Below are positions 1 through 29,760 of a stretch of DNA of 64,000 bases, piece after piece (position 1 is the stretch's first letter; the number at the start of each line of letters is the position of its first letter). Source of the stretch: Steroidobacter agaridevorans (lineage in GTDB: Bacteria > Pseudomonadota > Gammaproteobacteria > Steroidobacterales > Steroidobacteraceae); the NCBI RefSeq assembly GCF_009932555.1, contig NZ_BLJO01000003.1:372001-436000 (forward strand), given 5' to 3'. The notes under the pieces were generated by a model that ran no database searches, was not told the origin of the DNA, and saw only the letters and a list, made by a program, of their open reading frames with translations. The position numbers and the translations under genes were made by a program.

Positions 1-1650
1 GCGGCCCGCCGGCAGATTCGAAACTTCCGCGGACGACAGCTCGACGACCTGCGTCTGCACGACGATTTCACCGCCGGCGGCGCTCGCGTCGGTCGCGTTC
101 ACCAGCAGATTCAACATCGACGCTTCGAATTGCGCAGGATCGATCAGCGCGACGGCTTCGTCGGAGCACAAACGCAGCACCAGCGAGATCGATTCTCCGG
201 TCGCGCGTTTCAACAACGGCTCGCATTCGCGGATCAGGACATTGAGATCGCACGCCTGCGGCTGCAACGGTTGACGACGCGCGAATGCCAGCAGTTGCGC
301 AGTGAGTCGTTCGCCGCGCCGGGCGGCGGCGAGCGCGGCTTCGCCGAGTCGCTTGCGTCGAGCGGCGTTCTCCGGGTGTTTGAGAATGACATCGAGTGCA
401 CCGATCACGACTGTCAGCAGATTGTTGAAGTCGTGAGCGACGCCGCCGGTCAAACGGCCGATCGCATCGAGCCGTTGTGCATGCATCAGTGCCGCTTCCG
501 CATCCGATTTCGCGGCGATGGCTTCAGCGGCGCGATGTTCGGCAACCAGCTTGGCAGTGACGTCCTGGAATGCGGCGACCGTCAGCCGTTCCTGGTCGCC
601 GGCCTGCACCGGGGCGGCGGTCGTTTCGAACTGCACGACTGCGCCGTCGGGCCGGCGATAACTTTGCAGCTGCGGGCCGACGCGACGGTTCTCCGCCATC
701 GCCTTGTAGAGCACGTATTCCCTGGGCAGCAGCTGGTTGCCCGTTTGGTCGACCACGCCGTCCGCGATCTGCTGATCCCAGATCGCCTGCGATGCGATGG
801 GCCGACCGAGCAGCCGTTCCGCTTCGGCGTTCGCGAAGCGCACCTCGCCGGCGGGCGACGCTGCGACCAGGACGCCGATCGGCAGATTGTCGAGGACGGC
901 GCGCAGCTGTTGTTCGCTTTGCAAGGCGGCCCGTAGCGCCAGCGCTTCGACCCGGCGATCGTGCAGGGCTGCGATCAATGTCAGTAACAGGATGAAGAAG
1001 GTGCCCGCGGCCACGCCGATGGCCAGCACGATCGAGTCGATGCCGGCCGGCTCGATGTCGTGCAGCGAGCTCGCATCGATCTGAACGCCGAGCATCGCTG
1101 AGTAGTGCATGCCGACGATGGCGAAGCCCAGCGCGCATGCTCCCAGCGCACGTTGCGCACCCGTCGTGTTCTTTGCGGCCATCATCAGCGCACCGGTGGA
1201 TGCGCTGACCGCCACGATGAACGCGAGCACTGCATACACCGGCTCGTAAGTGAGCACGACTCCGGTGATCAACGCCGCCATGCCGACGTAATGCATGGTG
1301 CAGATGCCTGCCCCCATGGTCACGCCGGCGAATACTTGCCGATGCAACGACCGATGCCGGGAAGCAAAAAAGAACGCGAAGGCGGTGGTGGCGATCGCCA
1401 GCCCCAGCGATAACAGCGTCAGCCCGATCTCGTAGCGCACCTCGCCGCCGGGATCGAAACCGAGCATGGCGATGAAATGCATCGACCAGATGCTCAGGCC
1501 CATCGCGATGCCCGCCGCGGCGATCCAGGCCACGCGCCACGCGCCGCCATGAGCTCGCACCCGACGGAACAGATCGAGCGCGGTCCAGGAACCGAACCAC
1601 GCTGTAAGGATCGATAAAACAACGAAAATAGGGTGATGAGCCGCGTGCAT
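1..1650 (-). CDS. MHYT-domain sensor histidine kinase (3' end beyond window)
   Basis: Membrane sensor kinase read from ATG at 1650 on the minus strand; the reading frame is still open at base 1, so the C-terminus is missing. The N-terminus is a seven-helix-type MHYT region with three copies of the signature (MHF near residue 57, MHY near 117 and 179), a domain proposed to bind a metal and sense diatomic gases. A PAS-like segment follows (about residues 245-365), then a HisKA dimerisation box with the phospho-acceptor in VAHDFNNLL (His about 404), and the start of a HATPase domain. The HDFNN form is typical of hybrid kinases that end in a receiver, but that part lies outside the window. Domain assignment is firm; the signal sensed and the partner are unknown. 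Confidence 0.9.
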   Translation of the reverse strand, partial: MHAAHHPIFVVLSILTAWFGSWTALDLFRRVRAHGGAWRVAWIAAAGIAMGLSIWSMHFIAMLGFDPGGEVRYEIGLTLLSLGLAIATTAFAFFFASRHRSLHRQVFAGVTMGAGICTMHYVGMAALITGVVLTYEPVYAVLAFIVAVSASTGALMMAAKNTTGAQRALGACALGFAIVGMHYSAMLGVQIDASSLHDIEPAGIDSIVLAIGVAAGTFFILLLTLIAALHDRRVEALALRAALQSEQQLRAVLDNLPIGVLVAASPAGEVRFANAEAERLLGRPIASQAIWDQQIADGVVDQTGNQLLPREYVLYKAMAENRRVGPQLQSYRRPDGAVVQFETTAAPVQAGDQERLTVAAFQDVTAKLVAEHRAAEAIAAKSDAEAALMHAQRLDAIGRLTGGVAHDFNNLLTVVIGALDVILKHPENAARRKRLGEAALAAARRGERLTAQLLAFARRQPLQPQACDLNVLIRECEPLLKRATGESISLVLRLCSDEAVALIDPAQFEASMLNLLVNATDASAAGGEIVVQTQVVELSSAEVSNLPAGR

Positions 1651-1810
1651 GTCTTCTGAGCACACTTCCGTGCTGTGGCCGCCAGCATAGAGCCAGAAAA
1701 ATCGGCAAAACAATAGGACGGGCCGTGTTTCGCACCTGGGGACTGGGTTAAGCCGACTAACGGATTACCCGAGGGCCCCTGCGGTAGAACGAAGGCGTTG
1801 ACGAATCAGA

Positions 1811-1837
1811 GGGACTGTCGCTCGCCGACGACAGCCC
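1811..1837 (-). terminator. Hairpin downstream of the PVC-type dehydrogenase gene
   Basis: GGGACTGTCG (1811-1820) pairs with CGACAGCCC (1829-1837) with one bulged base, in the 193-base gap between the dehydrogenase stop at 1844 and the kinase start at 1650. It sits 7 bases past the stop. No clear U-tract follows on the minus strand, so a Rho-independent terminator is only a candidate reading. Apart from this hairpin I see nothing else in the gap. Confidence 0.4.
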
Positions 1838-1843
1838 GGCCGT

Positions 1844-4369
1844 TCAGCGTAGCGGCTGCAGCTCTTCGTCGCTCCACGGCTCGTCGCGATGGGCGACGAC
1901 GCCCCGAATGGATTCGACGGTGCGTGGATCGATGGGGCTCGCTTCGTTGCCCCACGAGCGACGCACGTAGGTGAGGATCGAGGCGATGGTCTCGTCGTCG
2001 AGCGCGCTGCCGAGGCCCGGCATCGCAAGTTGATCCACCTTGCCATTGAGCACGATGCGGACCACCGCCTGCGGCGAGCCGTTGACCCATTGCGAGCCGG
2101 CGAGCGCGGGGGCGAGGCCCTTCATGCCCTGGCCTTCATCTTGATGACAGGCGGCGCAAACGGCGAACGCCGTGCGGCCCTTGTCGTAGAGCGCGCGTTG
2201 TTCGGGTGTCAGCTTGGCGAGTGAGGCCGCCATGTCCACCGCGGAGCCGCGCCAACGTAGGAATTTCGCTAATTGCGCGGCCCTCGGCGCATCGGTCGCA
2301 CCACTGGATGCATAGGTGAGCAGCGCTTTGGGCTCGACGGCCAGATAGGCCATACGCTTCGAGCCATCGTCGGCGCGGGGAATAAGACGATCGATGCCAT
2401 CGAGCAAGGCGGTGCGGACCCACGCGCTGGTCTTCGCTTGAGTCAGGCGGTCGAGCAGTGCCTGGCTTTCCTCGACATCACCTGTCTGCAGCACCGTTGC
2501 CACGGCCACGGCGAGCACGGGTGATGCGTTGGCAGTGGTGGCTTCATCGTCCGTCGCCATCAGCGATGTCACAAACGGGGATTCGCGGCTGCTGACGCTG
2601 CTGACAATGGCATCGGCGACGTAAGGCTGCGCGCCCGCTTGACGGGCCAGTTCCAGCAGCGCGCCGTCTGCCTGATTTCCGATGGCCTCGCCGAGCGAGA
2701 GTGCGACCTGGCGAACGACTGCAGGTTCGTTCCATCGTGCACGTTCCAACCATGCCTTGATCGTACGGTCGGGATCGGTCGTCAGAAATTTTTCTGAGAC
2801 GCGGACGGCGGTGGATACGACGCGAGGCTCGGCATCGCGCAACGCTGCAGTGACGGTGGGCCAATCGATGGCGTCGATGCCATCCAGCGTCCACAGCGCA
2901 TGCACGCGGGTCACCGGGCGAGAGGCATTTGTAGCCAACCGTCGAAGCGCGGACGTGGTGCTGGCCTCCTGGCGCTCCACTAATAAGCGCTGCGCTGTTT
3001 CTCTTACCCACGCGCCTTCGTGATTGAGAGCGTCAACGAGTTGCGATGGCGTAGCTTTCGCCAGATTCGGCGCAGGGTGACGGGCCACATTCTCGGGCAC
3101 GATGCGATAGACGCGTCCCATGCCGAGCGGCGCCTCGAGGCCACGCTCCTTGATCTGGTTGCGCAGATAGGTCGTGAGAAAGATGCGGTGCTGGATCACG
3201 CCGCGATACATGTCGACGACATACAACGACCCATCGGGTCCGTTGTACAGATTCACGGGCCGGAATCGTTCGTCGGTCGAGGCGAGGAATTCGGTTCGCT
3301 CGTAAGCGTTGCGAACTCGGGGAATGCCGTCACGCTCTTCGATCACCAGCCGCTTCACGAGATTGCCGGCCGGCTCGCAGATGAAGGCATCGCCGCGGAA
3401 GCTTTCCGGGAACAACGTGTCGCGATAGATCGCAGGACCGCTGGCAGCAGTGAGGACGGGCAGGGTGCCGTCTTCTCGCAGGATTTTGTAACCGCGATTG
3501 ACGCCGGTCGTCACGCGAGCGGGCCAGACGGATATCTCACTGGCCCGCGCCAGCTGCACGTTCGAGCCGCGCGGGTTCGGGAGATTGCGATTGCGGAGCA
3601 GATATTCGGCGGGCAGGACGTCGGTGTACAGCGCGACGCTGTTGTTGTTGAAGTACAGCTGGCCGAAGTCGTCCTGCGCGATGCCCCACTGACCCCGAAA
3701 CGCGGTCGGCTCGCGTTTCCATTGTCCTCGCTCGTAGCGGAAGCGGGTCGTGTGATTCGCACTGTAGATCCAATTGTCGAAGCCCCGCAGCAAGCCGTTC
3801 GCGCTGTGCTCAGGGTTCGACGGATTGCCGTAATCGTTCGCGACCAGCTGCTTGTCGTCTGCCTTGCCGTCGTTGTCGGTGTCGCGCATGAACCAGAGAT
3901 TCGGCGGCTCGGCGACCAGCACGCCGTCGGCGACGAGCGCCAGCGCGCGCGGCAGCATCAGCCCGCCGGCGAACTCGGTGCGCTTGTCCATGCGGCCATC
4001 GTTGTTCGTATCTTCGAGGGTGGCGATCGTGCCGATCGGCGCGTCTTCGCCGGCGCCGTCGACGTTGGGCATGAAAGCGCGCATCTCGACGACCCACATG
4101 CGGCCATCGGGTCCGATGGTCATGGCCACTGGATCGAACAGCAGCGGGTCGCTGGCGACGATCTCCGCCCGAAACCCGGGCGCGACCCGCAATGTTTTCA
4201 GCGCGGCTTCTGGATTCAGCGCGGGCGCCGGAGGCGCTTTGATGTGGGCTGGCGGCGGTGTTTGTTTCTCACCCGGCCGGTCGCCGCTTTGCGCCTGCGC
4301 GTGCCACGCGGGAATCAACGCCAGGCAGGCGCCCGCGATGGCACGGAAGCCCGCTCTGGGAAATCGCAT
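1844..4369 (-). CDS. PVC-type membrane-bound dehydrogenase with HEAT repeats and cytochrome c domain
   Basis: Secreted 841-residue protein. After a signal peptide (residues 1-27, ending AWHAQAQ) comes a beta-propeller of the PVC dehydrogenase / sorbosone-dehydrogenase type (about 50-430, with repeated DTNNDG/DTDNDG segments), an alpha-helical HEAT-like region (about 430-680), and a C-terminal monohaem cytochrome c domain with CAACH at about 738 and a probable axial Met near 783. The architecture matches the putative membrane-bound dehydrogenases abundant in Planctomycetes and Verrucomicrobia. I use ATG 4369, which starts the signal peptide; 30 further in-frame codons upstream run into the next gene. 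It is last in an apparent operon (17 bases after the Gfo/Idh gene), suggesting it passes electrons from a sugar-derived substrate to the respiratory chain. The substrate is unproven. Confidence 0.85.
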   Translation of the reverse strand: MRFPRAGFRAIAGACLALIPAWHAQAQSGDRPGEKQTPPPAHIKAPPAPALNPEAALKTLRVAPGFRAEIVASDPLLFDPVAMTIGPDGRMWVVEMRAFMPNVDGAGEDAPIGTIATLEDTNNDGRMDKRTEFAGGLMLPRALALVADGVLVAEPPNLWFMRDTDNDGKADDKQLVANDYGNPSNPEHSANGLLRGFDNWIYSANHTTRFRYERGQWKREPTAFRGQWGIAQDDFGQLYFNNNSVALYTDVLPAEYLLRNRNLPNPRGSNVQLARASEISVWPARVTTGVNRGYKILREDGTLPVLTAASGPAIYRDTLFPESFRGDAFICEPAGNLVKRLVIEERDGIPRVRNAYERTEFLASTDERFRPVNLYNGPDGSLYVVDMYRGVIQHRIFLTTYLRNQIKERGLEAPLGMGRVYRIVPENVARHPAPNLAKATPSQLVDALNHEGAWVRETAQRLLVERQEASTTSALRRLATNASRPVTRVHALWTLDGIDAIDWPTVTAALRDAEPRVVSTAVRVSEKFLTTDPDRTIKAWLERARWNEPAVVRQVALSLGEAIGNQADGALLELARQAGAQPYVADAIVSSVSSRESPFVTSLMATDDEATTANASPVLAVAVATVLQTGDVEESQALLDRLTQAKTSAWVRTALLDGIDRLIPRADDGSKRMAYLAVEPKALLTYASSGATDAPRAAQLAKFLRWRGSAVDMAASLAKLTPEQRALYDKGRTAFAVCAACHQDEGQGMKGLAPALAGSQWVNGSPQAVVRIVLNGKVDQLAMPGLGSALDDETIASILTYVRRSWGNEASPIDPRTVESIRGVVAHRDEPWSDEELQPLR

Positions 4370-4386
4370 TCGATAGTCGTCAGGTC

Positions 4387-5736
4387 TTAATCGGCGCGGC
4401 TGAGCTGATACGCCTGCATGATGGTCGAGTACTTGGTGAGCATGTTCGGCACTTCCCATGCCGGCAGCTTGCCTGAGCGCAGGTATTTGAGGAAGTTTTC
4501 GGTGACCTGGGCGAAGTGCGCTTCGTGGCCGACGTTGTATTTGTCCGGCACCGTGACTGCCCAGCGCGCGCCGTCGCGGCGCACGCCCACGCCTGGATAC
4601 TTGCTTTGCAAGGACTCGATGGCGCTCCGCACCGCCGCTTCGTCCTTGGTGCCCTCGATGTAGAGCACAGGTTTGAATTGTTGAGCCGCGCCTTGCTGAA
4701 TCGTGAGCGAGGCTTTGGTCCCGCGCATCACGGAGAAGTGAGTGTCACCACCGCCGGCCGGTGCTTCGAAGTCCCACTTGACCGAGACCAGCGCGTGTAC
4801 ATCGCGCAAGCGGTAGGTGAACTCGCCGTTCGCGTAAACATTCAGCACACCGTTTTGCACGTCCGATTTCAGGAAGTCCGGAAACGCGGCCGCGCCCGTG
4901 GTTTTCTTGAACTGCGCCAACGTGATCGGTGTCCGGCTGTGCTTCGCACTCAGCACCTTCGCGTCTTCGGGCTCGAGTGTCTGCTCTGGAAAGGCCTGCC
5001 ATTGCACCAGGTCGACCAGATGCGTCGTCACATCGACCAGTCCTTCGCCTTGCTGACGCACATCGAAGAACCACTGCGGCCGCTTCAACGGCGAGCCGGC
5101 GACGATCTTCGAGAAGTGATGCACGCTTTCCTTGCGAATGGCGGGATCGGCGGGCGTGCCTTTCTGCAACGTGCCGAACAGCTCCGCCCGCTGCGACAGC
5201 TCACGCTGCAAGATCGATGTGATCTCGAAGCGCTCCGTCATGATGTCGTAGAGCAGGGTGCCTTTCTGCTCGGCGAGCGCGAACGCCTGCTTGAGCTTCT
5301 CCAGATCGGGCGGCGTGATCGCCATCGGCTTGTCGGCAAGCACATTGAAGCCGGCCTGCATCGAGCTCAGGATGTACTCCGCCTTCTGCGCATTGTTTCC
5401 TGAGATGACGACGACATTGCCGGCACGATCCTTGAGCATGCGCGGCAGGTAGTCGGGGCCGGTGTAGATTTCGGTGCGCCAGCGGGTGGGTTGATCCGCA
5501 CGCTTGTTGAAGCCTTCGATGCGCTTCATGTGCTCGAGCACGTCGTCGCCCTGGGGCGCGTAGACGTGCACGGCGGGATCGACGCCTTCATACATGAACT
5601 TCTGAACCAGCGAAGCATGGAAATGACCCGGATCGAGCGTGATCAGACGCACCGGGCCAGTGACACCTTCGGCAGGGGAGGAGAAGGCAGCAAACATCAG
5701 CGTCGCGCCCACCAGCGACTTCAACAGATTCCGCAT
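4387..5736 (-). CDS. Exported Gfo/Idh/MocA-like oxidoreductase with putative oxidoreductase C-terminal domain
   Basis: 449 residues with an N-terminal Sec-type signal (RNLLKSLVGATLMFAAFSSPAEG). The Rossmann-like N-terminal half holds VLADKPMA, the Lys-Pro motif of the Gfo/Idh/MocA family that positions the catalytic lysine; the C-terminal half belongs to the 'putative oxidoreductase C-terminal' group. The usual GxGxxG near the N-terminus is replaced by LITLDPGHFHASL, as is typical for this subfamily. It starts at ATG 5736, 8 bases after the stop of the next Gfo/Idh gene, so the two are co-transcribed. Probable role: NAD(P)-dependent oxidation, reduction or elimination on a sugar or keto-sugar in the periplasm, in concert with its neighbours. 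Family call is secure, substrate unknown. Confidence 0.85.
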   Translation of the reverse strand: MRNLLKSLVGATLMFAAFSSPAEGVTGPVRLITLDPGHFHASLVQKFMYEGVDPAVHVYAPQGDDVLEHMKRIEGFNKRADQPTRWRTEIYTGPDYLPRMLKDRAGNVVVISGNNAQKAEYILSSMQAGFNVLADKPMAITPPDLEKLKQAFALAEQKGTLLYDIMTERFEITSILQRELSQRAELFGTLQKGTPADPAIRKESVHHFSKIVAGSPLKRPQWFFDVRQQGEGLVDVTTHLVDLVQWQAFPEQTLEPEDAKVLSAKHSRTPITLAQFKKTTGAAAFPDFLKSDVQNGVLNVYANGEFTYRLRDVHALVSVKWDFEAPAGGGDTHFSVMRGTKASLTIQQGAAQQFKPVLYIEGTKDEAAVRSAIESLQSKYPGVGVRRDGARWAVTVPDKYNVGHEAHFAQVTENFLKYLRSGKLPAWEVPNMLTKYSTIMQAYQLSRAD

Positions 5737-5744
5737 GATGCCGC

Positions 5745-7124
5745 TCAGCTCTTGATCAGTCGCGTCACGCCGTACGGAGCGCGCTCGGGACGGGACAACC
5801 ACTTGTTCGCTTCGGCATCGTTGAGGAAGCTTTCGGATTTCACATCCCAGGTCAGCGGCCGCTGCAGCTTCATCGCAATCCAGCTGACGATACAGGCGCT
5901 GCCGCTGCGATGAGCGACGTGCGCGGGAGCGAGCGGTTGCTTGCGAGAGCGCACGCTTTCCAGCCAGTTCTTGTGATGATTGTCGCTGCGGGGCAGTTCG
6001 ACCTTCAGGCCCTTCGGATCGAGCAGACGTTTGTCGCTCGCGTCGAGCGGCGGCATGGTCTTGCCGGAGCTGGGATCGCTGGCGGTCGCCGTGCCGTCGC
6101 GCGTCACCCAGATCCAGCGGCCGTCTTCGCCAAAGAACTTCAGGCCGTTGTTGTGCTTGTCGGAAACATGCACCTGGATGTCGCCCGGATAAGTGAGCTT
6201 CACGTCGTAAGCGCCGTGCACGTTCCAGATCTTGTTGGTCGGGAAATCGGCCGTGCCTTCGACGCGCGACGGACCGCTCGCTTCCAGGTCGAGCGCCCAA
6301 TGCATGGTGTCGTAGTGATGCGAGCCCCAGCCGGTGATCATCCCTAAGCAGAACGACTCGTTGCGCAGCCAGCCCGGACGGGTTTCGTAGCCGACTTTCG
6401 GATGCACGCGCTGCTCGGTGTAATACGCAAACTCGGCGGGGCCGAGCCAGCGATTGTAGTCGAAGCCGTTCGGCACGGGCTGCGCCGGGTCGTCCGGCGC
6501 GGTCGGGTCGATGGGCAAGCCGATCTCGACGCTGCGCACCTTGCCGATGCGCCCCGAGCGGACCAGCTCCGCGGCCTGACGAAACTGGATCCAGGAGCGC
6601 TGCTGACTCCCGACCTGCAGGATGCGCTTGGTGCGCGCGACGGCGTCGCGCAGGATCTTGCCTTCGGCGATCGTCATCGTGAACGGCTTCTGCAAATAAA
6701 CATCTTTGCCGGCCAGGATCGCGGCCAGCGCCGGCTCGGCGTGCTGATGATCCGGAGTGCTGATCACGACGGCGTCGATGTCCTTGCGCTGAAGGATCTC
6801 GAGATAGTCGGTGTGCACGCTGACGGCAGGCATCGGCGCATTGATTTCGCGATACAACTCCTCGACGCGTGTCTTGCCCTCGGCCGCGCGACGCGCGTCG
6901 AGATCGCAAACCGCGACGATGTCGGCGAGCCCGGACTTCAACACGCCCGGCATGTCGTGGCCACGGGCGATTCGGCCGCAACCGATCTGGCCGACACGGA
7001 TCCGATTGCTGGGCGCATCGGCGCCCAACAACCGGCTCGGCAGTATTAGCGGCAACGATAACCCCATCAGCGTCTTACCGAACGTCCGGCGGGAAACGGA
7101 GCTCATGGGGTGTCGTGTTCGCAT
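5745..7124 (-). CDS. Tat-exported Gfo/Idh/MocA family oxidoreductase
   Basis: 459 residues. Residues 11-12 carry the twin arginine of SRRTFGK followed by a hydrophobic stretch, indicating Tat export with its NAD(P) already bound. The Rossmann fold begins with VGQIGCGRIARGH (GxGxxA type), and YLQKPFTM is the family's catalytic Lys-Pro motif. ATG 7124 is preceded by AGGAAG at 6-base spacing, which favours it over the internal ATG at 7106. It follows the TonB receptor gene by 9 bases and precedes a second Gfo/Idh gene by 8, so it is an operon member. Members of this family found beside DUF1080 proteins oxidise or reduce C3 of glycosides; that role is inferred here from neighbourhood. Confidence 0.88.
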   Translation of the reverse strand: MRTRHPMSSVSRRTFGKTLMGLSLPLILPSRLLGADAPSNRIRVGQIGCGRIARGHDMPGVLKSGLADIVAVCDLDARRAAEGKTRVEELYREINAPMPAVSVHTDYLEILQRKDIDAVVISTPDHQHAEPALAAILAGKDVYLQKPFTMTIAEGKILRDAVARTKRILQVGSQQRSWIQFRQAAELVRSGRIGKVRSVEIGLPIDPTAPDDPAQPVPNGFDYNRWLGPAEFAYYTEQRVHPKVGYETRPGWLRNESFCLGMITGWGSHHYDTMHWALDLEASGPSRVEGTADFPTNKIWNVHGAYDVKLTYPGDIQVHVSDKHNNGLKFFGEDGRWIWVTRDGTATASDPSSGKTMPPLDASDKRLLDPKGLKVELPRSDNHHKNWLESVRSRKQPLAPAHVAHRSGSACIVSWIAMKLQRPLTWDVKSESFLNDAEANKWLSRPERAPYGVTRLIKS

Positions 7125-7133
7125 GTCGTCTTC

Positions 7134-9971
7134 CTAAAACTGGCCGCGGATACCCAAAATGAACTGGCGGCCGGGTTTGTTCAATGTATTCGCACGGTTC
7201 TCGTAACCGTAGAACGAATATTCCTCTTCATCGGTCAGGTTGAGCGCTTCCAGACTGAGCGTCAGCGCCTGGCCGAGCGCCTCGAAGTTTACGCTACCGG
7301 AAAAGTCCAGATAACCCGCTTCGCGGCGATAGCCGGTTTCCGGCGAGGTCGAGCCGCAGTTCAGCTCGCACTCGACGTAGTCGTCACGATAGTTATACGA
7401 CAGTCGTAACGCAAAGCGGTCCTGCTCGTAGTAGGCAATGGCGTTGTAGTTGTTCTCCGCCAGGCCGAGGATGGTCTGACTGCCCGAGTCCAGGCGCGTG
7501 AAGTTCAACGTGACGCCCAGGCCTTGCAGCAGCATATCCAGGCGCTGTTGATACAGCAGCTCGGCGCCCTTGAGATACGTCACCGCCTCGATGTTCACCG
7601 GCGTGTTGAACAGCAGGACGGTGTCCAGGCCGTTCGGCAGCAGCGCGAGAATCGTCGGGTCGGTGATGGTATCGAGCGCGATGCCGGCATTGCGGAACGG
7701 TTGCGGAATGTTCTGCCGGGTGACGAAGCCGGTGATCTCCTTGTAGAACAGGTTGCCGCCCAACACCGCGCCTTCGGTGAAATACCATTCGACGCCGCCA
7801 TCGAGCTGGTCGGCGATGTACGGATCCAGGTTCGGATTGCCCTGGGACACGACGCCGCTGGTGCTGATCGAGGTGAACGGCTGCAAGTCGGAAGGATTGG
7901 GACGGGTCAGCGCCCTGGAGACCGAGAAGCGCGCCAGCACCGAGTCGCTCACGTCGTAAGCGAGATTCAGCGACGGCAGCGTTTCGGAATAGTCGCCATC
8001 GATCGTGTTACGGCCGTAGTCTTCCTTGCGCAGTCCGAACAGGTTGCCGGCGGCCGGTGGCGTCGTCGGGACGCGGATGAAGCCCACCATCTCATGCTCG
8101 GTCTGCACATAGCGCACACCGGCGTTGACGCGCAGGGTACGGCCCCACAGGTCGAAAGCCGCATTGCCCTCGATGTACGCCGACAGGTTCTCTTCCTCGA
8201 AGCTGCCGGAGTTCTGGAAGTCCAGATTGGCGGCCGCGTCGAGCGCGTTCGGATTCATCATGCCGCTGAAGGCGTCGAGGTCGCTGACGATCCAGCGGTT
8301 GTAACCCACCACATCCAGGTCCTTGCCGTAGTTCTTCACCGGCACCACTTCGGCGAAGTTGGTGATGTCGAACTCGTTGAGGTTGGCGCCGCCCGTGTAA
8401 CCGAAAGGAGTCAACGCAGTGCCTTGCGTCACACCGACGGATGACGAGTAGGCGAGGCGCTCGCGGTAGTACTTGTTGGCCAGCGCGCCGACGCGAACGT
8501 TTCGTTCGTCGTCGCCGAACTGCAGATCCAGCGAGAGGTTCTCGTTCTCTTCCTCGCGTGTGCGCGGCTGCACGCGTACCGTGTCGAACTGCCAGTTGCC
8601 CACGTCGGCCAGGTCGAGCTGCGGCGTGATCCGCGGAATGCCGCCGTTCACGTCGATGTCGACCGTGCCTGGCTGCGACAGGAACAGGTACGTGGTCATG
8701 CGCCAGCGGAAATCGGACTCTGCCTTCGAGGCTTTCACGTCCAGGCCGATGTTGTCCGTGATCTGCCACGAGCCGCCCAGGCCGAGATGCTTGAAGTCCG
8801 ACTCCTGCTCGAACAGCCGATTCTCGGACCAGAACTTCGCGTTGAGCAGCGTGCCGTGCGTCAGCGTGTTGTTGCCGTCGACCTGGAAATTGCTCGGCGT
8901 GATGTAGCCGAAGCCGGTGTCGCCGCGGGTTTGAAACGTGGTGTTTCGGACCAGCAGGTTGTTGGTGTAGCGATCGAAATCCGATTCCAGCTTGGCGTAG
9001 ATGGCATCGAGGTTGAACAACAACCGATCGTTCGGCGCCCACTGCAAGGCCAGCGTGCCGCCGACGCGATCGCGATCGCCGGTTTGCGTTTCAGGTCGGC
9101 CCAGTCGCGGCACCTGTGCATTCGCGAGCTGCGCGTTGGTGAGGCCCGATTCGTTGATGAAGTCCGGGCGTCGATTGGCGGGATTCGCATCGACGCTCGG
9201 CAGATTCCAATCGAAGCCGCCCGCATAGCCTGCGGCCGGCGGATTGTTTGGAATGCGGCCGGAAGTCCAGCCTTGCGAAGTCCAGCCATCGGTGCGGAAC
9301 GTTCGCTGCGACATCGATACGCTCAGCAGCGCGCCAAACTTGCCGTCCCAGTTGTTGCTGATCAGGAAGCTGCCGCGAGGATCGACTTCTTCGGACGACG
9401 ACTGATACGCGCCTTGCAGCTGATAACTGGCTTGGAAACCGTTGTAATCGAAGGGGCGGGGCGTGCGCAGATCCACCGTGCCCGACAGGCCGCCTTCCAC
9501 GGTGCTGGCCCGCGGCGTCTTCGAAACCTGCAGCATGCTGAAAATTTCCGAAGGCAGCAGATCGAAATCGAACTCGCGATTGCGCGCCTGTTGATCGACG
9601 CTGCCTTCGGAGGCGGCCGACACCGGCATGCCATCGAGCAACACACGAGCGAAGCTTGGGCCCATGCCGCGCAGTGAGATCTGCTGGCCTTCGCCGTTGG
9701 TGCGTGAGATTTGCACGCCTGGCACGCGTTGTAACGCTTCGGCGAGGTTGTTGTCCGGCAGCTTGCCGACGTCCTCCGCGGTAATGGAATCGGTGAAATT
9801 GACCGAATCGCGTTTGGCATCGAGCGCGACCTCGAGGCTCTCGCGATAGCCGGTGACGACGACTTCTTCGAGCTGGCCGGTGCCGGCGGTGGATGTTTCC
9901 TGCGCCAGGGCCACGCTGCCCAGGCACAAGCCCAACACTCCCGCGCTGGCCGAAGTCATGATTCTTTCCAT
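7134..9971 (-). CDS. TonB-dependent outer-membrane receptor
   Basis: About 945 residues. Signal peptide, then a short N-terminal TonB-box-like segment (EEVVVTGYRESLEVALDAKR), a plug domain (LPDNNLAEALQRVPGVQI, SLRGMGPSFARVLLDG), and a 22-strand barrel ending in Phe (GRQFILGIRGQF), the usual C-terminal signature. ATG 9971 is chosen because AAGGAGC lies 7 bases upstream; the upstream ATG at 9992 has no such site. First gene of a four-gene operon with two exported Gfo/Idh proteins and the PVC-type dehydrogenase, so the ligand is probably an oligosaccharide or glycoside. The promoter region carries three copies of a TGGTC(A)GGCCA-like site. Confidence 0.9.
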   Translation of the reverse strand: MERIMTSASAGVLGLCLGSVALAQETSTAGTGQLEEVVVTGYRESLEVALDAKRDSVNFTDSITAEDVGKLPDNNLAEALQRVPGVQISRTNGEGQQISLRGMGPSFARVLLDGMPVSAASEGSVDQQARNREFDFDLLPSEIFSMLQVSKTPRASTVEGGLSGTVDLRTPRPFDYNGFQASYQLQGAYQSSSEEVDPRGSFLISNNWDGKFGALLSVSMSQRTFRTDGWTSQGWTSGRIPNNPPAAGYAGGFDWNLPSVDANPANRRPDFINESGLTNAQLANAQVPRLGRPETQTGDRDRVGGTLALQWAPNDRLLFNLDAIYAKLESDFDRYTNNLLVRNTTFQTRGDTGFGYITPSNFQVDGNNTLTHGTLLNAKFWSENRLFEQESDFKHLGLGGSWQITDNIGLDVKASKAESDFRWRMTTYLFLSQPGTVDIDVNGGIPRITPQLDLADVGNWQFDTVRVQPRTREEENENLSLDLQFGDDERNVRVGALANKYYRERLAYSSSVGVTQGTALTPFGYTGGANLNEFDITNFAEVVPVKNYGKDLDVVGYNRWIVSDLDAFSGMMNPNALDAAANLDFQNSGSFEEENLSAYIEGNAAFDLWGRTLRVNAGVRYVQTEHEMVGFIRVPTTPPAAGNLFGLRKEDYGRNTIDGDYSETLPSLNLAYDVSDSVLARFSVSRALTRPNPSDLQPFTSISTSGVVSQGNPNLDPYIADQLDGGVEWYFTEGAVLGGNLFYKEITGFVTRQNIPQPFRNAGIALDTITDPTILALLPNGLDTVLLFNTPVNIEAVTYLKGAELLYQQRLDMLLQGLGVTLNFTRLDSGSQTILGLAENNYNAIAYYEQDRFALRLSYNYRDDYVECELNCGSTSPETGYRREAGYLDFSGSVNFEALGQALTLSLEALNLTDEEEYSFYGYENRANTLNKPGRQFILGIRGQF

Positions 9972-10090
9972 CTTCAGCTCCTTCGTTCTCATGGATCGTG
10001 GGCCGAATCGCCATGGAGGAGCTTGGTTTTGCCGCGGGCGAGCGCAGCCGTGCCGCCCTTTCGAGCGACAGCGCAGACCGGATATTCCCC

Positions 10091-10130
10091 CTGGTCGGCC
10101 ACCTTCATCGTTGGAAAGTGGCCTGACCAG
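10091..10130. promoter_or_regulatory. Inverted repeat, candidate operator of the TonB receptor operon
   Basis: CTGGTCGGCCACCTT (10091-10105) faces AAAGTGGCCTGACCAG (10115-10130), an imperfect inverted repeat with a 9-base centre, about 120 bases upstream of the receptor start at 9971. The half-site TGGTC(A)GGCCA resembles the TGGTC-N-GACCA sites of FadR-type GntR regulators, but no such regulator is encoded nearby, so the factor is unknown. Confidence 0.45.
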
Positions 10131-10188
10131 TAGATTGTTAGATCAGCGCGGGAAGCCTGTCAATCCTGTACTGGGATCGCTAACAGGG

Positions 10189-10200
10189 TGGTCAGGCCAA
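10189..10200. promoter_or_regulatory. Third copy of the TGGTCAGGCCA site
   Basis: TGGTCAGGCCAA repeats the half-site of the inverted repeat at 10091-10130 and abuts the stop codon of the Gfo/Idh gene ending at 10201. It may be an upstream operator of the receptor operon. Confidence 0.35.
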
Positions 10201-11349
10201 TTAGCTGAAGATTGGCGGGGTTGCCGCCTTCTGGGCGGTCAGGACCAGCTCCGCGGCGAGCAGCGCTTGTTTCTGATCCTGCGCAATTTGCGTGCGCTCG
10301 ACGATGTCCGTGACGAATTGCGGACCGAACGGCAGCGCCACGCCGTTGCAATCGATGTACCGGGCCTGTTTGCGGTCGACGATGTACAAGTGGTTGCCGC
10401 CCGGCAGCCCGGATGCGACGTTGATGTATTTGCGCAGCTCGATGTAGCCCTCGGTGCCGAGCACGAACAGGCGGCCATCGCCCCAGGTGCTCAAGCCATC
10501 GGGCGTGTACCAGTCAACGCGCACGTAGCCCGTGCCGCCATTGCCGCTGATCATCATGTCGCCGAAGTCTTCGAACTTCGGACGGTCGGGATGCGCCAGA
10601 TTGCCGGTCTGCGCAGCCACGACGCGCGCCTGGGTGCTGTTCGTGTAGTAAAGAAACTGGTCGGCCTGATGCGAGCCGATGTCGGTGAGAATGCCGCCGT
10701 AGCGCGCCTTGTCCCAGAACCAATCCGGGCGCGATGGGGCGTTTACGCGATGCGGCCCGAGATTGACGGTTTGAATCACCCGGCCGATCGCGCCCTGGCG
10801 AATCAACTCGCCGGCATACACGGCCGAGCGCACTTCGAGCCGCTCGGAATACATGATCGCGAATTTACGTCCGGTGGACTCGACCGTCTTCCGCACCTCG
10901 GCCAGCTGTTCCAGCGTGGTGATGCCCGGCTTGTCCGCCAGGTAATCCTTACCAGCTTGCATGGCGCGAATGCCGATCGGTGCGCGCTGATCGGGGATGG
11001 CCGCGCCGGCGATCAGTTGGATGGACTTGTCCTGCAGGATCTCGTCTTCGCTGCGCGCGACCTTCACGTCGCCAAATTTGGCGCGAAAGTCGGCGATCTG
11101 TTTCGGGTCGGAGCCATAAACGGCGACAAGTTTGCCGCCGCCGCGTTGCACGGCTTCGGTCATGCTGTAGATGTGCGCGTGATCGAGGCCGATCACGCTG
11201 AAGCGGATGGAATGTTTGCTCGCGGGCGCCTCGGTCTTCGCCTTCTCGTGAGCCGGCGTGCCTTGCGCGACGGCGGCTGATGACATGGCTGAGGCGAGGC
11301 CGGCTAGGCCGGCGGATTGCAGGAAAGTACGTCGATCGGTGTTGCTCAT
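10201..11349 (-). CDS. Tat-exported Gfo/Idh/MocA family oxidoreductase
   Basis: 382 residues, starting NTDRRTFLQSAGLAGLASA: a clear twin-arginine signal (RRTFLQ). The Rossmann N-terminus reads FSVIGLDHAHIYSM, a GLDHAHI variant without the standard GxGxxG, and the Lys-Pro motif is YLADKPGI. Gene starts at ATG 11349, 9 bases after the DUF1080 gene stop, so the two form one transcription unit. The cofactor loop differs from that of the Gfo/Idh protein at 5745-7124, so the two probably act on different steps or substrates. Likely periplasmic sugar or keto-sugar oxidoreductase; substrate unknown. Confidence 0.87.
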   Translation of the reverse strand: MSNTDRRTFLQSAGLAGLASAMSSAAVAQGTPAHEKAKTEAPASKHSIRFSVIGLDHAHIYSMTEAVQRGGGKLVAVYGSDPKQIADFRAKFGDVKVARSEDEILQDKSIQLIAGAAIPDQRAPIGIRAMQAGKDYLADKPGITTLEQLAEVRKTVESTGRKFAIMYSERLEVRSAVYAGELIRQGAIGRVIQTVNLGPHRVNAPSRPDWFWDKARYGGILTDIGSHQADQFLYYTNSTQARVVAAQTGNLAHPDRPKFEDFGDMMISGNGGTGYVRVDWYTPDGLSTWGDGRLFVLGTEGYIELRKYINVASGLPGGNHLYIVDRKQARYIDCNGVALPFGPQFVTDIVERTQIAQDQKQALLAAELVLTAQKAATPPIFS

Positions 11350-11358
11350 CTCTGATTC

Positions 11359-12699
11359 CTAGAGCGCGCGGATTTTGATGCTGCGGAAACGAACTTCATC
11401 GCCGTGATCCTGCAGCAGAATCCGGCCCTCTTCCAGCTTGCCGAAGCCGGCAATGTCTTTGAACTTGCTGTCGGCGACGCGGCGCTGGAAATCTTCGGAG
11501 CCGCGCTTGAAGGTCAACACCTGCACACCGTTGAGCCAGTGTTCGATGCTGCCGTCGGCCCTGGCGACGATGCGCGCATGCTGCCATTCGCCGACCTTCG
11601 GCGCGAGGCCGACATTGGTCATCAGCCGGCCGCGCGGCTGGATATCGTACAGCGAGGCGATCGTGCGATTGCCGTCCTTGCCTTGTTTCGCGTCGGCGTG
11701 ACGTTCGTCATCCAGCAGCTGATATTCGAGGCCCAGCGCATCGCCGGTGCCATAGTCGCCCACGTAGTACTTGATGCCGCTGTTCGCGCCGGGCGTGAGC
11801 TTGAAATCCAGCTGCAGCTCGAACGCGCGAAAGGTTTTTTCCGTGACGATGTCGCCGCCACCGCCGCCGGTGACGACCAGTTCGCCATCGTCGACTTTCC
11901 AGCCGCGCGTGGGAAAGGCATCGCCCTTGGCGCTGCGCCAGCCGGCGGTCGATGTGCCATCCCAGAGCAATTGCCAGCCTTGTTTGCGCTCGACCTCGCT
12001 CAGATCGTTGGGCAGGGTGTTGCGCACGAAGATCTTCGCTTCGGCGGGGGAGGCGGTCGGATGTTCCTTGATGCGCAAGTTGCGCCAATGAATCTGGCGG
12101 CCCGCTTCTTCGGGCTTGTCGATGGAATGCACCTGAAGCGCGATGAAGCCGTCCTTGTAGGTTGCATCGAGCACATACGCGGAGAGCTGGCCATTGACCC
12201 AGGTGCGCATCGACGGACCGATGGCCTCGATGCGGATCTGATTCCATTCGTCGAATTTGTACAGGCCGGGCTGCGGGTTGAGCGTGCCGGGATACCACCA
12301 GCCGCTCATGGCTTCATCGTACAGGCCGCCGGTCCACTGGCGCTCCGAAGGATCCAGATCCATCTGCGGCCCATGCACGCGGCCTTGCGTGATTTCCGGC
12401 TTGCTCTGGCTGCGAAACTGCACGCCGCTGTTGGTCGGGCCGACGGTTTGTTTGGCTTCGAACTCCAGGATGAAATCGCCAAAAGTTCGATCGGTGGCCA
12501 GAAAGCTATTCGGCGAGCCTGCGGTGGTCGTGCCCACGATGGCGCCGTCGACCACTTCGTACTTCGCGGAGCCGTTCACGACGCGCCAGCCGTTCAGTGT
12601 TTTGCCGTCGAATAACGATTCCGATTCGGCAGCCCCGGCCGCGTGTGCGAGTCCGGCGACCCACGGCAAGGTTGCGAGGCAAGTCAGGACAAACTTCAT
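11359..12699 (-). CDS. Secreted two-domain DUF1080 protein (3-keto-disaccharide hydrolase family)
   Basis: 446 residues with a Sec signal peptide (FVLTCLATLPWVAGLAHA). Two tandem concanavalin-like DUF1080 domains follow: the first begins SLFDGKTLNGWRVVNG (about residue 27), the second LLWDGTSTAGWRSAKG (about 245). Each holds the family's Asn-Ser-Gly core (TNSGVQFRS and ANSGIKYYV) and a C-terminal FRSIKIRAL strand. Pfam names this family 3-keto-disaccharide hydrolase; characterised members cleave 3-keto-glycosides made by a partner C3 dehydrogenase. ATG 12699 has GAGGGA just upstream; a longer frame upstream overlaps the divergent VOC gene and is rejected. First gene of a two-gene unit with the Gfo/Idh gene. 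The duplicated domain suggests one catalytic and one binding copy, which is a guess. Confidence 0.87.
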   Translation of the reverse strand: MKFVLTCLATLPWVAGLAHAAGAAESESLFDGKTLNGWRVVNGSAKYEVVDGAIVGTTTAGSPNSFLATDRTFGDFILEFEAKQTVGPTNSGVQFRSQSKPEITQGRVHGPQMDLDPSERQWTGGLYDEAMSGWWYPGTLNPQPGLYKFDEWNQIRIEAIGPSMRTWVNGQLSAYVLDATYKDGFIALQVHSIDKPEEAGRQIHWRNLRIKEHPTASPAEAKIFVRNTLPNDLSEVERKQGWQLLWDGTSTAGWRSAKGDAFPTRGWKVDDGELVVTGGGGGDIVTEKTFRAFELQLDFKLTPGANSGIKYYVGDYGTGDALGLEYQLLDDERHADAKQGKDGNRTIASLYDIQPRGRLMTNVGLAPKVGEWQHARIVARADGSIEHWLNGVQVLTFKRGSEDFQRRVADSKFKDIAGFGKLEEGRILLQDHGDEVRFRSIKIRAL

Positions 12700-12821
12700 G
12701 CAGAGTCCCTCGATAGTGAGCGCTGTCACTGAAGCGCGCGGCCGAGCATAACGAATTTTTCTTGTCTGCTGTCGCAATCGCCGGCTAGGATGAAATTTCC
12801 TTCGAGCCGTGATGACAAGCA

Positions 12822-13247
12822 ATGAGTCTGGCGCCTTTTCACCTCGCCATCCCCGTTCATGATCTGCCCGCCGCGCGCCGCTTCTACGGCGAAGTGTTCG
12901 GCCTGGCGGAAGGGCGCTCGAGCGCGCAGTGGGTGGATTTCGATTTCTTCGGCCATCAACTGGTGATTCACGAACATCCGAAGACGGCCTCGCAGGAGCA
13001 TGCTCATACCAATCCCGTGGACGGTCACGATGTGCCCGTGCCGCACTTCGGCGTCGTGCTCGAGTGGGACCGATGGGAAGCGCTGGCGGCGCGACTGAAG
13101 TCCTTCGGCATTCCATTCGTGATCGAACCTCACATCCGCTTTCGAGGTCAAACCGGCGAACAGGCCACCATGTTCCTGCTCGACCCGTGCGGGAACGCGC
13201 TGGAATTCAAGGCATTCAAGGACATCGGGCAACTGTTCGCGAAATGA
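12822..13247 (+). CDS. VOC family (glyoxalase/bleomycin-resistance-like) protein
   Basis: 141-residue protein with paired beta-alpha-beta-beta-beta modules of the vicinal oxygen chelate fold. Metal-ligand-like positions are FHLAIPV (His 7), a Glu-rich middle ([16 protein letters not shown]) and [15 protein letters not shown], whose final Glu is the usual metal ligand. Members include glyoxalases, extradiol dioxygenases and resistance proteins; this short type is usually annotated only as VOC or glyoxalase-like. It is divergent from the DUF1080 gene across 122 bases and may share its control region. Metal and substrate cannot be read from the sequence. Confidence 0.85.
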
Positions 13248-15078: not shown

Positions 15079-18000
15079 TCAGAATTCGGCGCGGACGCCG
15101 ATGGTGTAGCGGCGTCCCGTTTCCTCCAGCAGCAGGATCTGGTTGTCGTAGCGGCCGACGCGATGCTGGATCTCGTTGCCCAGATTCACGCCTTCCGCGA
15201 ACACCGAGAAGTGGTCGGAAATTGCCAAGCTGGCGCGGGCATCGATCTGTTGATACGGCTCGACGAAGGTGGGCTCACCGCCGAACCCGACCGCGGTTCG
15301 CAGGAAGCGCTCGCGGCGGTTCCAGGCAACGCGCACTTCCAACGGACCGTTCTCGTAGAAGCCGACGACGTTATAAGAGTCGCCCAAGCCTTCGAGTGCG
15401 AACGTTTGCGACACATCGTCCACGTTCAGCTCGGCGCCGCTGTCGACCAGCGTTGCATTCGCACCCAGGCCAAAGCCCTGCCAGAAACCCGGCAAGTAGT
15501 CGAAGCTGTGCTGGGCGCCGATCTCGACGCCCTTGACGGTGGCGCTCTCCAGATTGTCGAGCAGGCTCACTTCGAACACCGGATCGCCCGCGAACAGATT
15601 GTCCGAATCGGCGATGGGCAGCGCGCGATTCTCGACCGTGTTCACCAGGAAGTTCTGCACTTCCTTGTAGAACACGCCCACGGTGATGAAGCCGTTGTCC
15701 TGGTAGTACCACTCGGCGGAAAGATCCGCGTTCTTGGACTTGAACGGCTTCAGGTCCGGATTGCCGCTCGACGCCTGCAAGTTGCCGGGGCGGGTCGTGC
15801 CGATGACGAGGCGGGGCGACAATGCGCCCAGCGGCGGACGGGTGAGTGTCTTCGACGCGGCAAATCGCAAGACTACGTCGTCGGTGACATTCAAGCGGAA
15901 GCTCAAGCTCGGCAGAAAGTCGTTGTACTTGTTCGTCTGGCTGACGGTGACGGCATCGCCGAGGACTGTCATATACAGCGTGGGATCGCCGCTGTTGCGG
16001 AGATCCTGGAGCGCCTGCGAGATGCCGAACGCGGTGGTTTCGGTGCGCACATAGCGAGCGCCGAGCGTGAGATTCCATGGCATCTGCGCGAGCGAACCTT
16101 CGAGGCTTGCATCCGCATACAGCGCAGCGACTTCTTCTTCGACCCGCGACGAGTCCGGCCGCTGATGGATCTCGAAGCCATTGCTTTTGGCCAGGTCGGA
16201 CAACGTCTTTCCCGGAGTCAAGTTCCGAGCAGCGTCCCGCGCGCTGGCGGCTTCGGGGGACTCGAGATAGGCGAGCAGGGGATCGATATCGAAGGTCTGC
16301 CAGGCCGATGGCACCGATACGCGGCCGCCGAGATAACCGGAACCGACGCTGAAAGGTCGCAACAGATTGTCCGGAATGCCGACGAAGTAGCCGCAATACA
16401 TGCAGAGGACCTCGTTGTCCGAGAGCCGGGTATCGCGACTCTGTTTCTCCTGCAGATAGTAGCCGCCGACGGTGACGCGCTTGAGCAGATCGCTCTCCGG
16501 CTGCCATTGTGCTTCGATGCGATGCTCGTAGATTTCATCTTCCAGATCGGCGCCGCCGCCAAGCGGACCGCCACCGGTGCCGCGCAAGTTGAAATGCGCC
16601 ACCGGCAAGCTCGGATCCACATAATCGGCCGACGGCACGCCCGTGACCGAGGGGATGCCATTCGGCCCGTACGAGAGCGTGTAAATGTCCTTGCGGAAAC
16701 CGACGACCGCGACGTTCGTTCCTTCAGCGCCGCCGGACTTGGCGCGAGACCAGGACGAGTCGAGCGAGACATTGACGCTGTCGTTGACATCCCACGCGAG
16801 ATTGAGACCGCCGGCGTAAATATCAGTGGGACGGTCGCGCTCGGAACGCGTGTAGTCGACGGCAGCCTCGATCGTCTGCGTGATGCTCGTCGCCGTTCGA
16901 TGCTCGTCGAACCGAGCGTTGGTGATGATGGATGGCGTGACGAAGAAGCCGAGCGAGTTCGCCTGGGTGTACACATTGAACTTGTCGTACATGCCGTCGA
17001 CGGTCAGGCGAACGTTGTCCGCGATCTGATATTGGAACGTTGCGTTGACGTTGACTCGCTCGCGATCCTCGTCGACCGGGCTGACGTTCAGATTCTGCGG
17101 AATGAAGAACTGATCGTCCGCCGAGTAGCCCTGCGCAGCCAGATCCGATGCGATCAGCTTGAGGTCGTCGCGAGGCGCGGTGAGATAGCCGTCGGTGAGA
17201 ATGCGCTCCGAGCGGTTCTCGCGCTTTTGATACGAAGCGGAGACGAGCAGGCCGATGCGTCCGTCGGCGAAAGTGTCGCTGATCATGCCAAACACTTCCG
17301 GCGTCGTGTTCTCCGACAGATCTTCATACAGTGCCTTGGCGGAGAGAATGCTCTTGAATTCGCCGAGCTCCAGCGGACGCGGTGTGTGCAGCAGGATGGC
17401 CGAACCGATGCCGCCTTCCTGAAGCAAGGCGGTTGCACTCTTATAAACATCGACGCGGGAGATCAGCTCGGCAGGGAGCACATCGAAGTTGAATGAGCGC
17501 GCACCGGTGTCGGAAGCGAGCCGGCGACCGTTGAGCAGCACCGTGTTGAACTCCGGTCCGAAGCCGCGCACCGTGACGCCTTGGCCTTCGCCGCCGCTGC
17601 GATCGATGGACACGCCGGTAATTCGCTGCAAGGATTCGGCGATGTTGGTATCCGGAAATTTTCCGAGGCTTTCCGAGGCGATCGAGTCGACGATCTGATC
17701 CGAGTCGCGCTTGATCTCCATCGCCTGGCGCAAGCTGCTGCGAATGCCCGTGACGACGACTTCCTCCAGGTCCTGGGGCGCGGCCGCGGACTGCGCGGCT
17801 GCGGGGCCGCCCGCTACACCGAACATGACGGCCGATGCGGCTGAAGCCAGACGAACGTTCTTGACGATCCAAGGTCTGCTGATGCGTGGCACGCGTTGAT
17901 CTCCGGACTCTGCGTTGACGGGCCGCTCGCGCTCGGGTGTCGAGGGCGCGACCGGCAAAATCGTGACGGTGTGTTCGTTGAGATATTTGAAGGTGAGGCC

Positions 18001-18249: not shown

Positions 18250-18259
18250 GACTTCCCCC

Positions 18260-18327
18260 AGCCTCGCTCAAGGCGAGGCTCGTTCTCGATCGATCGTTCG
18301 AGCCGTCGTCTAAGGTGCGACGGGCTC
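18260..18327 (-). promoter_or_regulatory. Two hairpins between fecR and the TonB receptor gene
   Basis: On the minus strand the first hairpin (18318-18327 with 18300-18308, one bulge) begins just after the fecR stop; the second (AGCCTCGC/GCGAGGCT, 18260-18267 with 18273-18280) ends directly before the GGGGGAAG ribosome site of the receptor gene. They could attenuate, process or stabilise the mRNA to set receptor level apart from sigma and FecR. No U-tract follows either. Confidence 0.4.
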
Positions 18328-18330
18328 TCG

Positions 18331-19416: not shown

Positions 19417-19419
19417 GGC

Positions 19420-19935: not shown

Positions 19936-19982
19936 GGTTCTTGCGAATGTCGCCCGTGAAGTCGTAACCCTGTTGCAGTCTT

Positions 19983-20028
19983 AAGAGCGATCGCCGCGAA
20001 ATCGGTTACCGCGGCGATGCACTTTTTC
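19983..20028. repeat. Palindromic element copy 1, upstream of the sigma gene
   Basis: ATCGCCGCG (19990-19998) and CGCGGCGAT (20010-20018) form a perfect 9-base inverted repeat around AAATCGGTTAC. The whole 46-base stretch closely resembles 21425-21472 upstream of the GH27 gene (shared AGAGCG, TCGCC, CGGTTACCGC, GCGA, CTTTTT). The core GGTAACCG-N-TTTC looks like a LacI-family operator half-site. It could also be the terminator of the GH27 gene, whose stop is at 20032. Confidence 0.5.
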
Positions 20029-20031
20029 GAA

Positions 20032-27730: not shown

Positions 27731-29310
<1,580 letters not shown>

Positions 29311-29747: not shown

Positions 29748-29760
29748 GTCGCCAGGACAG

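Follow-up and report, generated by a model that had tools for sequence, protein, structure and literature searches.

The window analysed here is a stretch of 64,000 nucleotides from Steroidobacter agaridevorans (assembly GCF_009932555.1, contig NZ_BLJO01000003.1, positions 372,001 to 436,000). At 1844–12699 it carries six minus-strand open reading frames (ORFs), which lie in two tight units and were assigned to families by profile scans. Judged by sequence comparison, and held with about even confidence, the block would encode an exported system that oxidises a glycoside and then cleaves it, of the DUF1080/Gfo-Idh 3-keto-glycoside type. For brevity, the three Gfo/Idh proteins are termed GfoC3, TatGfoC2 and OxC, the PVC-type protein is termed PVC, and the double DUF1080 protein is termed DUF1080x2. 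The genes are as follows:

11359–12699, minus strand: DUF1080x2, with a Sec-type leader, two PF06439 domains (284 bits against a cut-off of 26.8), a full-length match to the solved relative 4JQT (416 bits) and conserved residues in the C-terminal domain.
10201–11349, minus strand: GfoC3, with a twin-arginine leader and an HxH motif in place of GxGxxG; PF01408 and PF22725, with matches to 2P2S (354 bits) and 3U3X (345 bits).
7134–9971, minus strand: a TonB-dependent receptor of the Xanthomonas/Caulobacter class (TIGR01782, 645 bits against a cut-off of 310).
5745–7124, minus strand: TatGfoC2, a candidate glycoside dehydrogenase with a twin-arginine leader; PF01408 and PF19051, BT_2158_fam (112 bits, cut-off 750) and a fold match to 8TDF.
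4387–5736, minus strand: OxC, a Gfo/Idh protein of the PF16490 family (404 bits) with a Sec-type leader and a match to 4OO3 (518 bits).
1844–4369, minus strand: PVC, comprising a DUF7133 (propeller) domain, HEAT repeats and a C-terminal cytochrome c domain (PF23500, TIGR02604 and Cytochrome_CBB3).

Transcription runs from DUF1080x2 to GfoC3 and, across a gap of 229 bp, from the TonB receptor through TatGfoC2 and OxC to PVC. After choice of the start codons, the gaps within the units are 9, 9, 8 and 17 bp, which agrees with the spacing of 8–17 bases and with the two minus-strand units that an initial annotation of this stretch had described. The receptor start at 9971 was chosen because the upstream ATG at 9992, which would shorten the inter-unit gap to 208 bp, is missing in the locus of the nearest named relative, Peristeroidobacter agariperforans KA5-B (L006). 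The PVC start at 4369 was chosen because it yields the 17-bp gap and a Sec-type leader. Leaders were judged by eye from the protein sequences, and the export signals annotated initially were found again. By this reading, GfoC3 and TatGfoC2 each begin with a twin-arginine leader, and the leaders of DUF1080x2, OxC and PVC are of the Sec type. It was likewise correct that the block holds no classical glycosidase, as an alpha-galactosidase-like gene (Melibiase_2, 97 bits) at 20032–21396 lies outside it.

L006 holds all six genes in identical order, with protein identities of 93–97%. The ratio of nonsynonymous to synonymous substitution rates (dN/dS) against P. agariperforans is 0.05–0.10 for each of them, and the six genes are therefore maintained by selection rather than being chance ORFs. 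The block has a GC content of 60–65%, similar to that of the flanking DNA. In a tree of 77 DUF1080x2 rows, 67 of which are from Bacteroidota, the window and L006 stand beside, not within, 73 other rows (support 97/99), with a rooting that is unsafe because long branches join near the drawn root. A recent transfer from Bacteroidota was considered and is not claimed, given this rooting and a GC content that matches the surroundings.

DUF1080x2 comprises two DUF1080/3keto-disac_hyd domains, the C-terminal one of which also matches single-domain solved relatives, including 8RR2 and 8TDA (89 bits each). The residues E-Q-LD-H-DA, LYD and QDHGD of this domain are at least 97% conserved in 74 double proteins and recur in alignments with 4JQT, 3HBK, 8V31 and 3NMB, and more weakly with 3U1X. 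They behave as family-conserved positions, with a putative catalytic role. Within the order sample, some DUF1080x2 match was present in 22 of 117 genomes and a full-length one in three, i.e. the window's own genome (G000), the congener G024 and G113. From 554 relatives, the best 80 loci were taken, and 12 of these were dropped for short flanks. A Gfo/Idh gene lies within 400 bp of DUF1080x2 in 54 of the remaining 68 loci, on the same strand in 52, compared with 3 of 279 control genes, taken from these loci at distances above 4 kb. The association of double DUF1080 genes with Gfo/Idh genes, on which the initial annotation drew, is supported. Eight Gfo/Idh genes from these loci were scored, and all had BT_2158_fam, a glycoside 3-dehydrogenase family, as their best match (81–280 bits, all under the cut-off of 750). 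As precedents, Caulobacter has a DUF1080 gene near its lactose 3-dehydrogenase that is important when it uses lactose, and BT2157 is named a 3-ketotrehalose hydrolase, both according to an excerpt of one source (PMC9007349).

The initial annotation had assigned oxidation at C3 to all three Gfo/Idh proteins, which is not supported, since only TatGfoC2 resembles glycoside 3-dehydrogenases, at a score far under the cut-off. The AlphaFold model of TatGfoC2 has a mean pLDDT of 75.7. Its highest query TM-score among the 50 matches listed (0.64) was obtained with 8TDF, titled an Alistipes glucoside-3-dehydrogenase in the PDB, at 21% identity over 448 columns including gaps. By E-value, DgpA1 ranks first in the fold search, and DgpA is presumably a glycoside-oxidising enzyme. 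The arginine pair R12–R13 is present in 19 of 19 rows of one alignment and in at least 95% of the 27 rows of another, with a stricter twin-arginine leader pattern in 21 of 27 rows. A loose glycine-rich pattern for the NAD loop is found in all 27 rows, and the G-x-G loop, K146, H269 and D272 are conserved.

GfoC3 and OxC differ in that HxH occupies the position of the glycine-rich NAD loop (residues 57–59 and 38–40, respectively). The motif is written PGHFHA in 30 of 32 OxC rows and G-x(2,3)-HxH in six of seven GfoC3 rows. A twin-arginine pattern is found in all seven GfoC3 rows, window included, and in none of the 32 OxC rows. All three proteins share the lysine that stands before a proline after the first domain and a later pair of aspartate and histidine, which we take to be the catalytic residues of the Gfo/Idh/MocA superfamily. 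They are conserved within each family (TatGfoC2 K146/H269/D272; GfoC3 K140/D223/H227; OxC K136/D235/H239). The solved relatives of GfoC3 and OxC listed above bear no function name.

In the mechanism proposed for the block, the TonB receptor would admit a small glycoside, or an oligosaccharide, to the periplasm. There, TatGfoC2, which its Tat leader and fold suggest to be exported folded with bound nucleotide, would oxidise a ring hydroxyl, most likely that at C3. The C-terminal domain of DUF1080x2 would subsequently cut the keto-glycoside, by analogy with its family members BT2157 and the Caulobacter lactose gene. GfoC3 and OxC may play an accessory part, binding the keto intermediate or turning it over. 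At a guess, their simplest role would be to take the hydride back, recycling the bound cofactor without free NAD. PVC could be a second oxidising or cleaving enzyme for the same diet, with a parallel or linked job. Overall, what the initial annotation observed is confirmed, and its interpretation is partly supported.

Gene neighbourhoods elsewhere were examined in 32 regions around PF16490 genes (30 from Bacteroidota and two from Planctomycetota; window, L006 and G024 excluded), and raw counts are given. Three PF16490 fragments of G628 at contig ends were left out, and a 32-bit PVC-like gene in L153 was not counted as PVC. These regions are not independent because 14 of them come from genomes selected for DUF1080x2, and some are close kin, such as three Arenibacter. 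In 23 of the 32, OxC has TatGfoC2 (more than 390 bits) next to it on the same strand. The regions further hold DUF6807 (19), SusC with SusD (11), ThuA (8), UxuA (6), GfoC3 (3), GH67 (2) and GH115 (2). The trio TatGfoC2–OxC–GfoC3 is found in L153, L219 and L220, and TatGfoC2 with GfoC3 in L218. The closest single analogue of the second unit is L164 (Ilyomonas limi), which carries DUF6807, ThuA, TatGfoC2, OxC, SusC, SusD, a TIM barrel and PVC in this order on one strand. The initial annotation had proposed a search for conserved synteny of DUF1080, exported Gfo/Idh, TonB receptor and PVC-type dehydrogenase. This was found in part: TatGfoC2, OxC, an outer-membrane transporter and PVC share one region (L164), while DUF1080x2 is missing from all 32 OxC regions.

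Close GfoC3 relatives (447–483 bits, next match 62) occur in 5 of 296 sampled Bacteroidota genomes, with up to six candidates scored per genome. PF16490 occurs in 19 of the 296, and all five GfoC3 genomes are among these 19, a co-occurrence with a chance of 6e-7 under an independence of genomes that does not hold. Of these five genomes, three have GfoC3 linked to TatGfoC2, OxC or both (L218, L219 and L220), and two have it unlinked (L216 and L217); L153 is a further locus with such a link. PF16490 was also found in 14 of 40 genomes drawn from the 80 DUF1080x2 loci, the genome of L006 included, and in a single genome, the window's own, among the 274 that make up the class sample. In G024, only a remnant of OxC is present (L167, 8621–9370), which matches window residues 10–107 and 378–439, beside a whole-looking TatGfoC2 (727 bits). 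OxC thus appears to be decaying in this congener.

Several points weigh against an oxidise-then-cleave system. Apart from the window and L006, none of the 32 OxC regions holds DUF1080x2, and in Bacteroidota DUF1080x2 is usually partnered by another Gfo/Idh subgroup. TatGfoC2 stays under the equivalog cut-off of BT_2158_fam (NF058561), and GfoC3 and OxC reach no NCBIfam cut-off for glycoside dehydrogenases. With the BT_2159 disaccharide 3-dehydrogenase family (NF058563, cut-off 650), GfoC3 and TatGfoC2 score 25.6 and 24.3 bits, both below. In view of their HxH motifs, GfoC3 and OxC may work entirely without NAD. The substrate may also differ, because uronate genes (GH67 and/or UxuA) lie beside three of the four GfoC3–TatGfoC2 loci, while UxuA is absent from all three genomes of the window's group. 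Finally, some DUF1080 proteins may cleave without prior oxidation. As excerpted, one source names the DUF1080 protein THTE_1561 an endo-xanthanase/lichenase (PMC9007349), and another proposes a role for it in xanthan use (PMC5673643). The excerpt of the former also describes ten Pedobacter DUF1080 genes without a lactose phenotype, perhaps owing to redundancy (PMC9007349).

Following the precedent of THTE_1561, DUF1080x2 could be an ordinary secreted glycanase acting on unoxidised substrate, with the Gfo/Idh genes unrelated in task. The tight and repeated company that Gfo/Idh genes keep with DUF1080x2 (54 of the 68 loci, as opposed to 3 of the 279 control genes) makes this quite unlikely. Alternatively, the Gfo/Idh trio might act on sugars that contain uronate or are otherwise modified, and not at C3 but at another carbon, DUF1080x2 being a separate neighbour. 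The surroundings of OxC elsewhere would fit, with GH67 and UxuA present in L218 in addition to the above regions with GH67, GH115, UxuA, DUF6807 and ThuA. However, uronate genes are lacking among the six, UxuA is missing from all three genomes of the window's group, and the trio sits with DUF1080x2 in both the window and L006, which renders this alternative rather improbable. A uronate pathway as such, suggested by the GH67, GH115 and UxuA neighbours in other phyla, was rejected given that UxuA is absent from three of three genomes of the group.

With regard to the substrate of the favoured oxidise-then-cleave system, strains SA29-B and KA5-B use cellobiose, methyl beta-glucoside, trehalose and turanose according to the excerpted source, whereas YU21-B, of the same species as SA29-B, does not (PMC7966939). 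All three strains use both lactose and gentiobiose (PMC7966939, as excerpted). If the window strain is SA29-B, both SA29-B and KA5-B carry the block.

The gap between the two units contains the following features:

10134–10163, minus strand: promoter-like TTGACA-18-AACAAT, the only such site in 1500–13100; present in L006.
10119–10129, no strand assigned: operator-like 11-mer TGGCCTGACCA, downstream of the promoter-like site; present in L006.
10189–10199, no strand assigned: inverted copy of the 11-mer TGGCCTGACCA, upstream of the promoter-like site; present in L006.

By number, the promoter-like site is not significant because 1.7 are expected by chance in 11.6 kb and one was found. The 11-mer occurs twice in the window against 0.22 expected, and 3 of 100 shuffles also gave two. 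The gap is conserved in L006 as a whole, not in the motif alone. As an operator for a regulator, the 11-mer pair stays a suggestion, since its pattern is not enriched genome-wide: it has 49 occurrences, and the reversed control has 83. Neither the promoter-like site nor the 11-mer was found upstream of the first unit. These features of the gap would suit two unrelated operons that are neighbours by accident, and the gene order kept in P. agariperforans weighs little here because of the high protein identity. However, the two units are tied together by loci elsewhere, since GfoC3 goes with TatGfoC2 and/or OxC in four of them and DUF1080x2 adjoins PVC in G024 (L168). We therefore regard an accidental neighbourhood as very unlikely. 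In that G024 locus (8097–13097), PVC and DUF1080x2 are followed by an ABC ATPase gene (Pfam).

PVC scores 347 bits with PF23500/DUF7133 and 206 bits with TIGR02604 (cut-off 122), in addition to cytochrome c. The CxxCH motif and a later Met-Pro are invariant in seven of seven aligned relatives (C738, C741, H742 and M783), and the cytochrome domain therefore looks genuine. The AlphaFold model, built from four sequences, is of low confidence (mean pLDDT 49.5). In Foldseek, soluble PQQ glucose dehydrogenase ranked second (TM 0.16/0.27), and most matches were helical repeat proteins. A profile of the seven relatives was compared with the PDB; the best 60 of 218 matches included HEAT-like and cytochrome c chains, but a quinoprotein large subunit was not among them. 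PVC relatives are found in 33 of 296 Bacteroidota genomes at E ≤ 1e-20, and a scan of viral contigs for PVC found none. The five best Bacteroidota relatives (L294–L298) each lie beside a protein of 355–373 residues and a short-chain dehydrogenase. In L170 (7313–10975; G000 C2), the window's own genome encodes a second PVC-type protein, followed by a gene resembling an ABC-transporter ATPase, as judged from its N-terminal sequence only.

The initial annotation had the Gfo/Idh enzymes oxidise at C3 and the electrons leave through the cytochrome domain of PVC, from which they would pass to the respiratory chain. In favour of this full chain, PVC is the last gene of the unit that holds OxC, 17 bp past it; its CxxCH and Met-Pro are invariant as in a working cytochrome c; and L164 and G024 place PVC on one strand with TatGfoC2 and OxC and next to DUF1080x2, respectively. 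The electron route is nevertheless not supported by the neighbourhoods. PVC is present in 3 of the 32 OxC regions. Conversely, regions were read around 16 of the 17 best PVC matches in Bacteroidota (G607:C13 left out), and OxC was seen in none of them. These 16 contain a TatGfoC2-like gene twice (137 and 254 bits) and a DUF1080 match once (18 bits). Moreover, we are aware of no path that would let NADH trapped inside a Gfo/Idh protein reduce a cytochrome domain, and a shuttle of bound cofactor would need no cytochrome. Electron exit via the cytochrome is one option, not the best-supported one, and the chain as a whole appears improbable.

PVC might instead cleave glycosides itself, as a propeller beta-galactosidase, or be its own PQQ-type sugar dehydrogenase, independently of the Gfo/Idh proteins. 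The same architecture (TIGR02604, HEAT repeats and cytochrome c) is found in Lac161_ORF7, which the excerpted source reports, as a purified protein, to be a beta-galactosidase that freed glucose from lactose, as measured with glucose oxidase, with a Km of 1.8 mM (PMC5342196). Paludisphaera borealis encodes 18 propeller proteins homologous to Lac161_ORF7 in a genome with 20 DUF1080 and 41 PF01408 proteins, according to the part of that report available (PMC5352709). The PQQ variant could draw on the second-ranked Foldseek match. However, the TM-scores and the pLDDT of the model are too low to carry weight, the seven-relative profile found no quinoprotein large subunit among its best 60 PDB matches, and the beta-galactosidase activity is claimed by a single paper. 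Either role for PVC is thus unlikely.

Compared with known systems, the oxidise-then-cleave block resembles the 3-keto-glycoside pathway of gut Bacteroidota (BT2157/BT2158/BT2159; Alistipes AL3, PDB 8TDF/8TDH), reportedly described by Nasseri et al. in Nature in 2024. Both combine Gfo/Idh dehydrogenases with DUF1080 and share the conserved residues of its C-terminal domain, and the fold of TatGfoC2 is near 8TDF. In contrast, the proteins of the block fall far under the equivalog cut-offs, its DUF1080 is doubled, it adds GfoC3, a PF16490 protein and a cytochrome protein, and a TIGR01782 receptor replaces SusC/SusD. This receptor is not a SusC (TIGR04056, 31 bits against a cut-off of 368), and there is no SusD among the six genes. 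The block is also akin to the Bacteroidota loci with SusC, SusD, DUF6807, ThuA, TatGfoC2 and OxC (e.g. L164, which includes PVC), with which it shares TatGfoC2, OxC and an outer-membrane transporter. Unlike them, it adds DUF1080x2 and is devoid of SusD, DUF6807 and ThuA; ThuA is found elsewhere in the genome, where DUF6807 was not searched for. The Gfo/Idh fold is shared with glucose-fructose and aldose-aldose oxidoreductases (1OFG and 5A02), which belong to different subfamilies, whereas the block has three such proteins plus a cleavage enzyme. These oxidoreductases recycle a tightly bound cofactor. Caulobacter LacABC with its DUF1080 gene provides a proteobacterial and periplasmic parallel, for which cleavage by DUF1080 after oxidation has been proposed (PMC9007349, as excerpted). 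Unlike that system, only Gfo/Idh dehydrogenase families were found among the six genes, LacABC not having been searched for in the rest of the genome. LacA is a GMC-type enzyme.

On a tentative and somewhat doubtful extension of this reading, GfoC3, TatGfoC2 and OxC would constitute an undescribed three-enzyme redox set that operates outside the inner membrane in several phyla. The NAD-loaded Tat enzyme would oxidise the sugar, and its two HxH partners would bind the resulting keto compound or rearrange it, so that glycosides are opened without free cofactor; in Steroidobacter, DUF1080x2 would do the cutting. A search of the literature, limited to open-licence papers, turned up no paper on this gene set. 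What would be new is that three exported Gfo/Idh proteins, two of them with HxH, form a set, that this set is joined to DUF1080x2 in a gammaproteobacterium, and that a cytochrome protein is included. If true, a soil gammaproteobacterium would digest glycosides oxidatively by means of an outer-membrane receptor of its own, a cytochrome protein and the exported Gfo/Idh trio. This would provide a function for PF16490 and DUF7133, both putative or unknown in Pfam, and for the double DUF1080 family, and it would show how nucleotide-dependent sugar oxidation runs where no free NAD is expected.

Elsewhere in the window, the plus strand carries Calvin-cycle genes at 27769–35571, encoding the RuBisCO large chain (PF00016, 455 bits), fructose-1,6-bisphosphatase (FBPase), phosphoribulokinase and transketolase; the host is probably an agar-degrading soil bacterium. 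On the minus strand, 15079–21396 holds genes for an ECF sigma factor, a FecR-like protein (under the equivalog cut-off) and a TonB receptor with an STN domain, adjoining the alpha-galactosidase-like gene, and these are possibly a sugar-sensing set upstream of the block.

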